From assembly GCF_900103935.1 (NCBI RefSeq), contig NZ_FNIC01000006.1, positions 1 to 64,000 on the forward strand: a DNA stretch of 64,000 bases. Reading direction: 5' to 3'. Within the stretch, counting starts at the first letter, position 1; each line of letters begins with the position of its first letter. The notes below the pieces were generated by a model. It was not told where the DNA came from. It saw only the letters and a program-made list of their open reading frames with translations, and did no database searches. Shown here one piece after another: positions 1 to 29,565 of this stretch. The stretch comes from Nocardioides szechwanensis (GTDB lineage Bacteria > Actinomycetota > Actinomycetes > Propionibacteriales > Nocardioidaceae). Position numbers and translations under genes: made by a program.

Positions 1-209
1 AACTTTCCACACCCATCCCATGCAGGAGAGTGTCGTATCAGGTATTAGACCCCGTTTCCGAAGCTTATCCCCAAGTGGAGGGCAGATTACTCACGTGTTA
101 CTCACCCGTTCGCCGCTCGTGTACCCCCGAAAGGGCCTTACCGCTCGACTTGCATGTGTTAAGCACGCCGCCAGCGTTCGTCCTGAGCCAGGATCAAACT
201 CTCCGTAGA
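1..209 (-). rRNA. rrs: 16S ribosomal RNA, 5' part only (cut by window start)
   Basis: The complement reads as the conserved 5' region of bacterial 16S rRNA. The universal AGAGTTTGATCCTGGCTCAG site is at 202-183 on the minus strand, followed by the conserved GACGAACGCTGGCGGCGTGC region and the actinobacterial stretch around the first variable region. By analogy with E. coli numbering the mature 5' end lies near 209. Only about 210 of roughly 1,500 bases are present; the rest lies beyond base 1. The gene is on the same strand as the arginine operon. Confidence 0.98.
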
Positions 210-17013: not shown

Positions 17014-17859
17014 CTACGACCGACGATGCGCGGTGGCCGAGGCGTAGAGGCAGAGCGCCGCCGCCGTCGACAGGTTGAGGCTCTCGGCGCGGCCGTGGAT
17101 CGGGATCGCGAGGCGGTGGTCGGCGAGGGCCGCCAGCTCGTCGGGGAGGCCCCAGGCCTCGTTGCCGAACAGCCAGGCCGTCGGCTGCGTGAGCAGGTCG
17201 CCGGCCTCGAAGAGGTCGACATCACCGGCACCGTCGGCGGCCAGTACGACGAGCCCCGCCGCCTGCGCGGCGCGCACGGCGGTCGCCGGGTCGGGCTCGA
17301 CCGCGAGCGGGAGGCGGAACAGGCTGCCCACGCTGGCGCGGACCGTCTTGGGGTTGTAGGCGTCGACCGAGCTGCCGGCCATCACCACCGCGTCGGCACC
17401 GGCGGCGTCCGCGCTGCGGATCACGGTCCCGGCGTTGCCGGGGTCGCGCACGTCGGCGCAGATCGCGACCAGGCGCGGCGCGGGGTCGAGCAGGTGGGCG
17501 AACGGCCGGTCGACGAACCGGCACAGGGCCACGACACCCGCCGGGCTGACGCTGTCGCTGAGGGACGCGAGAGCGCGCTCGTCGACCAGCGTCCAGACGG
17601 GCGCGGCGGCCGCGAGGGCGGCGTACTGCTCCGTGGCGGCCGGGGTCGCGAAGACCTCGACCACGCAGCTCACCCCAGAGTCCGACACCGCGCCGAGCGC
17701 GCCCTCGACGGCCTTCGGGCCGTCGGCAAGGAACAGCCGCCGCTCGGATCGCTCCGAGCGGCGGCTGAGCTTGCGGGTCTCCTTGAGCCGGGTGTTGCCC
17801 GACGTCAGCGGAGTGCCCAGCGGGTTTCGAGACAGGCGCTGCGCGCCTTCCTCAACCAC
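17014..17859 (-). CDS. SPOUT (TrmH/SpoU-family) RNA 2'-O-methyltransferase
   Basis: 281 aa. The N-terminal substrate-binding domain (TSGNTRLKETRKL to about 110) is followed by the SPOUT knot: motif 1 ADVRDPGNAGTVIRSADAAGAD, motif 2 WLFGNEAWGLP, motif 3 IPIHGRAESLNLSTAAALCLYA. It probably methylates a ribose in 23S rRNA, as TsnR/RlmB relatives do; the target is not readable here. The only conventional start before the conserved region is GTG 17859, which lies inside a repeat element five bases after rplT, so the true N terminus is uncertain. Confidence 0.9.
   Translation of the reverse strand: MVEEGAQRLSRNPLGTPLTSGNTRLKETRKLSRRSERSERRLFLADGPKAVEGALGAVSDSGVSCVVEVFATPAATEQYAALAAAAPVWTLVDERALASLSDSVSPAGVVALCRFVDRPFAHLLDPAPRLVAICADVRDPGNAGTVIRSADAAGADAVVMAGSSVDAYNPKTVRASVGSLFRLPLAVEPDPATAVRAAQAAGLVVLAADGAGDVDLFEAGDLLTQPTAWLFGNEAWGLPDELAALADHRLAIPIHGRAESLNLSTAAALCLYASATAHRRS
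17706..17766. repeat. Two perfect hairpins early in the SPOUT methyltransferase gene
   Basis: One has 14-base arms AGCCGCCGCTCGGA (17735-17748) and TCCGAGCGGCGGCT (17753-17766) around a TCGC loop. It encodes the SRRSERSERR segment. The second has 8-base arms CGACGGCC (17706-17713) and GGCCGTCG (17718-17725) around TTCG, within DGPKAV. Such strong structures early in a coding region are unusual. Codon choice could produce them by chance at this GC content. Confidence 0.6.
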
Positions 17860-17863: not shown

Positions 17864-18256
17864 TTACGCGGTGGCCTCGACCTTGGGCGCGTTGACGTCC
17901 TCGGGCAGAGCCGCGCGGGCGGCCTCGAGGATCGCGGTGAACGCGGCCGGGTCGTTGACAGCCAGGTCGGCGAGGATCTTGCGGTCGACCTCGATGCCGG
18001 CCAGGTGCAGGCCCTGGATGAAGCGGTTGTAGGTCATGCCCTGCGCACGCGCGGCGGCGTTGATGCGCTGGATCCACAGCTTGCGGAAGTTGCCCTTGTT
18101 CTTGCGGCGGTCGTTGTAGCTGTAGACCAGGGAGTGGGTGACCTGCTCCTTGGCCTTGCGGTAGAGACGCGAGCGCTGGCCGCGGTAGCCGGCAGCGCGC
18201 TCGAGGGTGGTACGGCGCTTCTTCTGGGCGTTCACTGCCCGCTTGACGCGTGCCAT
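17864..18256 (-). CDS. rplT: 50S ribosomal protein L20
   Basis: 130 aa, primary 23S rRNA-binding protein needed early in 50S assembly. It starts [21 protein letters not shown] and carries the conserved [15 protein letters not shown] and [20 protein letters not shown] blocks. A clear SD, AAGGAGTAACACC, precedes the ATG. It is the third gene of infC-rpmI-rplT, 67 bases after rpmI. In Bacillus the orthologue represses its operon through the mRNA leader. Confidence 0.99.
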
Positions 18257-18323: not shown

Positions 18324-18518
18324 TCAGATGCCGAGCATCTTCTTGACGCGCTTGGTGTCGTTCTTGGCGACCGTCACCGTGCCCGTCAGGCGACGCGTGA
18401 CCTTGGAGGCCTTCTTCTCCAGGTTGTGGCGCTTGCCTGCCTTCTCGCGAAGGATCTTGCCGGAGCCGGTCACGCGGAAGCGCTTGCCGGCACCGGAGTG
18501 GCTCTTGTTCTTCGGCAT
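18324..18518 (-). CDS. rpmI: 50S ribosomal protein L35
   Basis: 64 aa. The start [14 protein letters not shown] is the family N terminus, so the longer reading frame upstream is not used. Basic throughout, ending KRVKKMLGI. It sits between infC (77-base gap) and rplT, the universal order of this operon. Confidence 0.99.
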
Positions 18519-18595: not shown

Positions 18596-19279
18596 TCAGG
18601 CCTCGATCTCGGGATCGAGGTTCTCGGAGCGGCCGCGCTCCTTCTTCTGCGCCACGGGACCCGCGGCATGTGCGGCCTCGCGCTCGGCCTGCTCTTCCTC
18701 GACCAGCGCTGCTCGCTCTGCGGCCTTGGAGTCCTTCTCGGCCTGCATGTCGATGCGGGCGTCGGCCTTCTTCTTGTGCGGGCCGAGCACCATGATCATG
18801 TTGCGGCCGTCCTGCTTGGGCGACGACTCGACGAAGCCCAGCTCGGTGACGTCCTCGGCCAGGCGCTGCAGCAGCCGGAAGCCCAGCTCGGGACGGTGCT
18901 GCTCGCGGCCTCGGAACATGATCGTGATCTTGACCTTGTCGCCGGCGCGCAGGAACCGCACCACGTGACCCTTCTTGGTCTCGTAGTCGTGCGCGTCGAT
19001 CTTGGGACGAAGCTTCATCTCCTTGATGATCACGTTCGTCTGGTTCCGGCGCGCCTCACGGGCCTTCTGGGCGTTCTCGTACTTGAACTTCCCGTAGTCC
19101 ATGAGCTTGCACACGGGCGGCTTGCCCTGGGGGGCGATCTCGACGAGGTCGAGGTCGGCCTCCTGGGCCAGCTTGAGGGCCTGGTCGGTCGGCACGATGC
19201 CGACCGTCTCGCCGTTGGGTCCGACGAGGCGGACCTCGGGTACCCGGATCCGCTCGTTGATACGAAGCTCGGTGCTGAT
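18596..19279 (-). CDS. infC: Translation initiation factor IF-3, non-canonical AUC start
   Basis: 227 aa. IF-3 binds the 30S subunit and rejects wrong start codons. The conserved N domain begins [20 protein letters not shown], and the C domain includes the [18 protein letters not shown] region and [15 protein letters not shown]. In frame before the conserved start there is a TGA (about 13 codons upstream) and no ATG, GTG or TTG after it. Codon ATC at 19279 follows TGGAGGACAC, a good SD. The first downstream GTG (19195) would delete 28 conserved residues. E. coli infC uses AUU for autoregulation, and AUC fits the same logic. A long acidic/basic tail follows the C domain. Confidence 0.95.
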
Positions 19280-19582
19280 GTGTCCTCCAGTGTGTTCGGG
19301 GCCCGGGAACCGCCCTCAAATGAAGAACGGCTCCCGCTGTCTCAAGCGGAAGCCAGTCGCATCGCGTCCACCTCAAAGGCTTCTGCGACTCCGTAGGCTT
19401 CGGGTCTGCGCGTGCGCTAGGCGCTCACGCAAGGCCGGAGCCTGCGGGACCGGACCCGACGACCTGTTTCGGTCGATGCGGGTGGGAGACGATGAAGCTG
19501 ACTCCGCTTGTGTGATCGGTCCAGTTTCCTGGACTGATCGGTCAACGCCACATGCTAGTCGAACATTCCGTCGGGAGCCCAA
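19280..19582 (-). promoter_or_regulatory. infC-rpmI-rplT leader with terminator/antiterminator-like structure; no gene
   Basis: This 303-base gap has no coding signal. A possible -10 TAGCAT (19557-19552) would give a leader of about 265 bases. In RNA order it holds a hairpin with arms GATC-GTCCAG type around GAAA (19539-19514, one mismatch). Next come AGTCGCA (19390-19384) and GAAGCC (19383-19378), then TGCGACT (19361-19355). Last is a 10-base-pair hairpin, GGCTTCCGCT-TGAGAC-AGCGGGAGCC (19354-19329), followed by GTTCTTCATTT. GAAGCC can pair with the GGCTTC half of the last hairpin, so two exclusive folds exist. Confidence 0.55.
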
Positions 19583-20077
19583 TCAGGGACGGAGCCAGGC
19601 CGAGCGGTCGCCGACCCGGGTGAGGGTCCAGCCGGAGGCGACCCCGACCAGGTCGTCGCCCTCGAGGACGTAGGTGGCCGGGCCGGCGATGTCGACGACG
19701 AGCGCCGCGGCGTGCTCCTGGAGGGCCGCCTGGGCGGCGGTCGAGGCGGCCACGGGCACCGGCCGGGCCGCGGGGTCCCACGCGGCCATCGCGTCGGTGC
19801 CGGTGAACGCGAGCATCGCCAGCCGTCCGTCGGCGCCCTCGAGCAGCACCGCTGCCATGTCGCTGGTCTTGTCGCGGGCCAGGCCGTCCTCGCCCACCTC
19901 GACCTCACCGAGCACGGCGACGATGGGCACCAGCAGGCGGGCGCCGGCCAGCGCGGCCAGCGCGTCGGCGTGCAGCGCCGGGTCCTCGTCGTACGACGTC
20001 AGCGCTCGCCGTACGTCGGGGTCGGCCTGGCCGGTGTCGTCGGGGAAGGCCGGACCGAGGAGGCGTCGTTCGCTCAC
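19583..20077 (-). CDS. SseB-family protein
   Basis: 164 aa from GTG 20077. It resembles the SseB N-terminal domain common in actinobacteria: ARLLVPIVAVLGE, then MAAVLLEGADGRLAMLAFTGTDAMAAWDPAARPVPV, then ALVVDIAGPATYVLEGDDL near the end. Function is unknown; the family name comes from an enterobacterial serine-sensitivity enhancer. The gene is divergent from the small membrane-protein gene starting at 20118, with 40 bases between the start codons. No signal peptide or membrane segment. Confidence 0.8.
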   Translation of the reverse strand: MSERRLLGPAFPDDTGQADPDVRRALTSYDEDPALHADALAALAGARLLVPIVAVLGEVEVGEDGLARDKTSDMAAVLLEGADGRLAMLAFTGTDAMAAWDPAARPVPVAASTAAQAALQEHAAALVVDIAGPATYVLEGDDLVGVASGWTLTRVGDRSAWLRP

Positions 20078-29194: not shown

Positions 29195-29283
29195 GTCCTG
29201 CCCTCGGGTCCGTGCGTGGACTCCGGGGCGGACGGCGGCGCCGGACACACCAACTGCTCGTGCGTCGACGTCACCTGCGTGCG

Positions 29284-29422
29284 CTTCCCATCCGGACTTT
29301 AACCGTCGGTCCAGGAATCACACCTGGTCAACCGGTCACTGGCTGTGACCGGGTCGCGGACTTCCGAGCGAAGCAAGGCTTCGAACGGATCACCGCCGGC
29401 TCGGAATTGCACCGACCCCAGA
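29284..29422 (-). promoter_or_regulatory. FMN riboswitch (RFN element)
   Basis: The minus strand shows the conserved RFN pieces in order: GGGGTCGGTGCAATTCCGA, GCCGGCGGTGATCC, then a variable stem built on GGTCAC/GTGACC, GTGATTCCTGGACCGACGGT, and finally AAAGTCCGGATGGGA. It ends about 90 bases before ribD. FMN binding should switch off ribDEBAH. No T-rich terminator was seen between aptamer and ribD, so control at the ribosome-binding site is more likely than termination. From 29195 to 29576 no gene is present: bases 29195-29283 are the expression platform and 29423-29565 hold nothing I can name. Confidence 0.95.
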
Positions 29423-29565
29423 GCACGCGAGTTGTTAGCTCGTCAGGGACAAGCCTGCCACATCGCTTGAGCGGACGGTGCGGGTGCCCGGATGTCGGCC
29501 ACCCTCCGCTGCCAGGTGGAGGCCCTGCCTGTGGAGAGAGCCGGCAACCGGGAGCAGGACGTGGT

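Follow-up and report, generated by a model that had tools for sequence, protein, structure and literature searches.

The 300-nt gap upstream of infC in Nocardioides szechwanensis raises the question of whether an actinobacterium controls its infC-rpmI-rplT operon by attenuation in the leader, as Bacillus does through L20, and, if so, with which RNA structures and which ligand. We analysed a window of 64,000 nucleotides (contig NZ_FNIC01000006.1, positions 1 to 64,000), in which the operon was assigned as follows.

18596-19279, minus strand: infC, encoding IF3 (Pfam IF3_N/IF3_C), with the start codon ATC at 19279
19288-19284, minus strand: Shine-Dalgarno sequence GGAGG of infC
18324-18518, minus strand: rpmI, encoding L35 (Pfam)
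17864-18256, minus strand: rplT, encoding L20 (Pfam), candidate ligand of the switch described below

The upstream neighbour of infC is an sseB-like gene, also on the minus strand, which ends at 19583. Directly 3′ of rplT lies a gene for a SpoU/TrmH-type rRNA methylase (17014-17859, minus strand). The infC start codon is ATC in 88 of 89 leaders from the genus and in 70 of 71 wider leaders, the other two having ATT; pipelines restricted to ATG, GTG and TTG would misplace this start (in the window, at GTG 19195). Elsewhere in the window we observed the 5′ end of a 16S rRNA gene (1-209, minus strand), truncated by the contig end, and an FMN riboswitch aptamer (29275-29430, minus strand, 90.9 bits), which is the sole riboswitch present; a 23S rRNA gene was not found in this genome's assembly. 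No Rfam riboswitch or T-box matched the infC leader of the window, and no Rfam family covered this leader stretch.

The terminator of the infC leader

The original prediction described a 10-bp hairpin followed by the tail GTTCTTCATTT, and both are present directly upstream of infC, within the intergenic gap.

19354-19345/19338-19329, U-rich tail to 19318, minus strand: intrinsic terminator, supported by terminator scan, folding and covariation

An independent terminator scan recovered the element at 19354-19318, and the hairpin folds at -19.2 kcal/mol compared with -9.4 for shuffled sequences (z -4.3); the whole infC leader of the window has a folding z of -6.1. Comparison with other Nocardioides leaders, the check that had been proposed together with the hairpin, drew on infC genes identified in 145 of 147 genomes, from which 89 leaders were taken and 58 aligned (alignment A1). 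In this alignment 99.1% of the cells of the terminator stem are paired and six of the ten pairs show compensatory changes, against 42-61% paired in slid controls, and none of 500 shuffles reached the observed covariation score. The tail is T-rich almost everywhere among the genus leaders. The RNA device in the infC leader very probably cuts transcription short. A terminator was not recognisable in some members of the family (L117, L118, L140, L144 and others), and therefore a translational role may also exist.

Aptamer and long-range pairing

The original prediction covered only the 3′ part of the device; the conserved device spans 19543-19318 and consists of a four-helix aptamer (P0-P3) at the 5′ end of the transcript, a variable linker and the terminator. 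Its elements upstream of the terminator stem, together with the strand that overlaps the stem's 5′ arm, are listed below, where ON and OFF denote the predicted readthrough and termination folds.

19552-19557, minus strand: predicted -10 box TAGCAT, with a predicted transcript start at about 19545-19543
19539-19543, minus strand: P0 5′ strand GACCG, pairing with CGGTC at 19452-19448 (A4 covariation)
19514-19539, minus strand: P1, variable hairpin GATC.GTCCAG-GAAA-CTGGAC.GATC (fold of the leader)
19498-19510, minus strand: putative switching strand CAAGCGGAGTCAG, which contributes GGAG to P2 in the OFF fold and pairs over its whole length with the terminator 5′ arm in the ON fold
19485-19505, minus strand: P2, hairpin GGAG (19505-19502)/CTCC (19488-19485), excluded by the antiterminator helix
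19454-19483, minus strand: P3, hairpin ACCCG-CAT-CGACC ... GGTCG-T-CGGGT, with outer helix ACCCG/CGGGT and inner helix CGACC/GGTCG
19448-19452, minus strand: P0 3′ strand CGGTC (A4 covariation)
19343-19356, minus strand: putative antiterminator 3′ strand CTGGCTTCCGCTTG, the terminator 5′ arm (minimum free energy fold, conservation and swap test)

In nearly all listed relatives a -10-like TANNNT motif stands 8-9 nt before GACC, and the predicted transcript start matches the 5′ end of the Rfam family Scr1601 (AACGACCGG) at the corresponding place in Streptomyces. The aptamer was assessed in A4, a structural alignment of 76 loci built via two rounds of covariance models (R1 and R2). Overall, 93.0% of its cells are paired, 15 of 20 pairs show compensatory changes and 94 cells are double-changed, compared with 23 in shuffles and 7-20 when the structure was slid; A4 was fitted to the structure and hence favours it, and the slid controls share the same alignment. 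The helices covary individually: P0 (GACC/GGTC; helix 1 of A4) is 87% paired with compensatory changes in three of four pairs, P2 (helix 2) is 91% paired with changes in five of six, and P3 (helices 3 and 4) is 99% and 94% paired with changes in seven of ten, its ACC/GGT being invariant. P1 is in relatives a hairpin varying in sequence and length, and is absent in L004, L009 and L018. The letters AAG-N-G, C-ACC and GGT of the aptamer are identical in all 76 loci, the first of these (AAG and the next-but-one G) belonging to the switching strand.

The minimum free energy fold of the full window leader pairs CTGGCTTCCGCTTG (19356-19343) with CAAGCGGAGTCAG (19510-19498), about 150 nt apart. The competitor of the terminator 5′ arm is therein CAAGCGGAG at 19510, which replaces the GAAGCC of the original prediction; the strand of the conserved alternative fold lies 110-130 nt further upstream, beyond the coordinates considered there. 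Within Nocardioides both strands of the long-range helix hardly vary, and the helix accordingly shows no covariation there. We therefore rely on a wider comparison, in which kinship is not fully removed, and in which this helix, like the terminator stem and the aptamer helices, covaries. In a swap test on 33 leaders, mostly one per genus with four from Nocardioides, CAAGYGGAG strand and terminator 5′ arm had a mean duplex energy of -19.97 kcal/mol as own partners and of -16.68 (sd 0.42) when the arms were swapped between species, and none of 20,000 permutations reached the own value, a count that is not a strict probability since related species are not fully independent. Strands from P3 and from the linker, used as controls, showed nothing, and a strand from the 3′ side of P1 showed a weak effect (414 of 20,000); an earlier set of 31 leaders had given the same result as the set of 33. 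Variants of the pair include GGCTCC/GGAGCC in the Streptomyces type, GCGGAGACCC/GGGTCTTCGC in L155 and GGAGGCCCACC/GGTGGCCTCC in L304. When the best partner of the terminator arm was sought across each leader, the switching strand came top in 85% of genus leaders and in 47% of wider leaders, where terminator calls are poor in some. Judged from these comparisons, the long-range helix is likely to be the antiterminator. Both it and the terminator are conserved, and their sequences make the ON and OFF folds mutually exclusive.

Four species (L018, L066, L069 and L075) have lost the 3′ half of the terminator and the U-run and have kept the 5′ arm and its partner, with pairing energies of -21 to -26 kcal/mol; the pairing therefore seems to serve some purpose in its own right. 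In these leaders of the Nocardioides group (L018:1309-1500, L066:86-259, L069:450-655 and L075:478-652) it lies 23-34 nt before the start codon, and they are perhaps a translational variant. A further candidate, in which the terminator 3′ arm forms a hairpin with the downstream GAGGGCGGTTCCC, was rejected as it was seen only in this strain and in L007.

Distribution and relation to known leaders

The R2 covariance model found one copy each in 132 of 198 well-assembled genomes of Actinomycetia, representing 59 of 76 genera; the element is ancient and common to most genera of the class. The matches include Streptomyces-type IF3 families (L281-L292) and Mycobacterium-type ones (L293-L298), these names being assigned from the IF3 protein sequence. 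A plain pattern scan of 84,980 genomes, blind to genes, returned 116 matches, every one of them 150-300 nt upstream of infC and on the right strand. The gene context is fixed: in all 115 loci with enough downstream sequence the leader is linked to rplT and to the IF3 and L35 genes alike, and none of the 115 separates the leader from rplT, a separation that would have told L20 from IF3. A search for second copies in the N. szechwanensis genome, for example before infA, given the similarity of the infA and infC UTRs (PMC3207917), gave one real match only. A weak match outside the class (L302:1501-1598) also precedes infC, and contains AAGCGGAG, helices resembling P2 and P3, and CCTCCGCC a short distance upstream of the Shine-Dalgarno sequence; in this leader the same aptamer may be coupled to a switch that acts on translation.

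Among the closest known systems is Streptomyces RNA 1601 (Rfam RF02830, Scr1601), a homologous element at the same position upstream of infC. Its model matches the Streptomyces homologues end to end with 102-186 bits, from 5′ AACGACCGG to GGGGCATTTTTT at the terminator U-run, which fits premature termination there; R2 and Scr1601 matches coincide before infC in Streptomyces-type loci (L281, L283, L287, L292 and others), and the RF02830 model has no match at the leader of the window. As far as we have seen, Scr1601 is restricted to Streptomyces, and Rfam types it as 'Gene; sRNA' and not as a cis-regulator. According to passages of PMC8388888, its expression was confirmed in S. coelicolor (citing Vockenhuber et al.), growth-phase expression of scr RNAs was reported, and the scr1601 homologues of S. 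ambofaciens lay within a UTR and did not qualify as sRNAs. We take Streptomyces scr1601 to be the terminated infC leader, and the sRNA record supports the existence of a terminated product. The device had been expected to be new in an actinobacterium, and this holds in part: the Streptomyces homologues were already catalogued, yet within the reach of our literature search, outside which many journals lie, we found no paper describing the leader as an infC attenuator or beyond Streptomyces.

Passages of a study in M. tuberculosis (Arnvig 2011, PMC3207917) report a 326-nt 5′ UTR for infC, with a UTR/CDS ratio of 2.6 in exponential and 4.9 in stationary phase, overlapping a divergent upstream gene, and suggest that this UTR is homologous to that of infA and may have a regulatory role; these passages contain no structure or attenuator. 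The Mycobacterium-like genomes of our set (L293-L298) carry both element and terminator, in leaders of 214-301 nt, which may be compared with that long UTR, more abundant than its coding region.

The L20 leader of Bacillus subtilis (Rfam L20_leader; Choonee 2007; Babina 2018, PMC6097659) stands upstream of infC in the same operon, and likewise consists of an aptamer region and, 3′ of it, a Rho-independent terminator for which an alternative fold exists; it too has an AA dimer and two consecutive G-C pairs. As in leaders of this Firmicutes type, the actinobacterial leader lies upstream of infC-rpmI-rplT and contains an intrinsic terminator. Unlike the Bacillus leader, it has P0-P3 at its 5′ end and a long-range antiterminator, and L20 is only a candidate ligand. 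The Bacillus form has been described as confined to Firmicutes (PMC6097659), and the Rfam L20 leader models matched neither the window (at gathering thresholds or with E up to 5) nor 16 diverse homologues (E up to 1). The E. coli L20 operator, a pseudoknot and hairpin before rpmI, shares L20-linked cis-regulation and long-range pairing, but acts on rpmI-rplT translation instead of infC transcription, without a terminator and on an unrelated scaffold. With this operator and with the L20 r-leader of Deltaproteobacteria the shared hallmark is two G-C pairs and AA (PMC7247131); the L20 leaders listed in the same 2020 survey of r-leaders come from Gammaproteobacteria, Firmicutes and Deltaproteobacteria only.

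Proposed mechanism, ligand and alternatives

In Actinomycetia, the leader of infC-rpmI-rplT probably attenuates transcription in response to a protein, as an r-leader, with surplus L20 as the most likely ligand. The proposal of an attenuator with a logic like that of Bacillus L20 is well supported by the comparative evidence, and what did not survive is the antiterminator first named for it. In the ON state, the terminator 5′ arm, once transcribed, would pair with CAAGCGGAGTCAG far upstream, which would open P2 and block the terminator. In the OFF state, a ligand would hold P0-P1-P2-P3, with CAAGCGGAG engaged in or beside P2, so that the 5′ arm would stay free and the terminator would form before infC. 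Folding of the window leader in stages gave -100.9 (ON) versus -92.0 kcal/mol when the 5′ arm is just made (ON better by about 9), -105.2 (ON) versus -108.1 (OFF) when the U-run is reached, the unconstrained minimum being aptamer (P0-P3) plus terminator, about 3 better, and -129.0 (ON) versus -125.7 (OFF) for the full leader (ON better by about 3). Readthrough is therefore the probable default, and the choice would fall before the 3′ arm has been transcribed. If P2/P3 were stabilised by a ligand, this default would give way to termination; the direction of the response is inferred.

The ligand would be surplus L20, product of the last gene, whose 23S rRNA site the leader would mimic. L20 is our best guess because it is known to regulate this same operon in Bacillus and, in E. 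coli, rpmI-rplT (PMC10931766; PMC6097659), because rplT is never separated from the leader, and because of the invariant AA and G-C pairs. The hallmarks of L20 r-leaders are two consecutive G-C pairs and an AA dimer (PMC7247131), and in A4 the AA (columns 69-70) and two C-G pairs (121-196 and 122-195) are invariant in 76 of 76 loci; this records the presence of the letters only and is weak evidence, because AA and G-C pairs are common. A plain sequence search for rRNA mimicry against E. coli 16S and 23S rRNA gave short words only, all of them outside the L20 site region. The CAAGCGG of the invariant strand occurs twice in E. coli 16S rRNA (L306, at about 934 and 1273), which may be chance.

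The same switch could answer to another ligand, with IF3, product of the first gene, or L35 binding the aptamer and closing the feedback loop; this we regard as possible but doubtful. Both are linked to the leader as constantly as L20 is. For IF3, this loop would come in addition to start-codon discrimination at the ATC, which is kept in 158 of 160 leaders and points to autocontrol of translation by IF3; E. coli 16S rRNA also contains the leader word CACAAGCGG, near 934. This match is short, however, and we know of no IF3 site that includes it; moreover, the known ligand of infC-operon leaders is L20, and the invariant nucleotides agree with the L20 hallmark. The near-universal ATC suggests a second, translational control by IF3. 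It is unlikely that the element is chiefly a trans-acting small RNA with termination before infC as its production route, in spite of the Rfam type and the growth-phase expression mentioned above: it always stands directly upstream of infC, its covarying alternative fold prevents its own terminator, and the S. ambofaciens homologues lie in a UTR. The hairpin might also be the ordinary terminator of the sseB-like gene, outside the infC transcript. That gene does end upstream on the same strand, but a conserved -10 box and the entire conserved RNA stand between it and the hairpin, the corresponding upstream gene of M. tuberculosis is the divergent one noted in PMC3207917, and the borders of Scr1601 are exactly those of the leader, which makes this reading very improbable.

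Two further explanations place the switch within the 3′ part of the leader. In one, GAAGCC (19383-19378) would be the antiterminator, pairing with the GGCTTC half of the hairpin in a single alternative fold with AGTCGCA/TGCGACT. These words are present, the latter two at 19390-19384/19361-19355, and the complementarity exists in this strain and partly in the close relative L007, but the order AGTCGCA, GAAGCC, TGCGACT, GGCTTC makes the two pairings cross instead of nest; the sole copy of GAAGCC that nests with GGCTTC is a second one at 19401-19396. In the 58 aligned leaders the GAAGCC and AGTCGCA strands sit in the gappy, variable linker, and relatives conserve neither the GAAGCC/GGCTTC pairing nor AGTCGCA/TGCGACT. 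Shuffled sequences fold as well as this region does (z 0.12). AGTCGCA/TGCGACT can moreover form together with the terminator and is present in the predicted OFF fold. We give this antiterminator hardly any credence. In the other, a ribosome translating the short reading frame MRLASA (19362-19342, minus strand; ATG CGA CTG GCT TCC GCT TGA), with its stop codon in the terminator loop, would mediate attenuation. The frame has a good Shine-Dalgarno sequence (GAGGTGGA) in the window, but its start and stop occur together in only six of 77 genus leaders, and the conserved letters track base pairing and not codons; the mini-ORF is strain-specific, and a leader-peptide attenuator was rejected as scarcely credible.

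To our knowledge, ribosomal protein balance in Actinomycetia (Streptomyces, Mycobacterium and Nocardioides) is poorly known. We read the leader described here as an attenuator of the r-leader kind that is spread across a bacterial class and combines an aptamer of its own with antitermination by long-range pairing. It offers a concrete conserved RNA switch in front of an essential operon and shows precisely which strands mutations should target. We see about an even chance for the broadest reading, that this is a new, class-wide L20-sensing r-leader on an independent scaffold, which attenuates transcription in most lineages and acts on translation in species that lost the terminator, with scr1601 as the terminated product. 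The attenuator accounts for a small RNA catalogued in Streptomyces, which would be a truncated leader, and gives a possible reason for the abundant infC 5′ UTR of M. tuberculosis. If L20 is the ligand, the leader would be a further RNA that came independently to mimic the rRNA site of L20.
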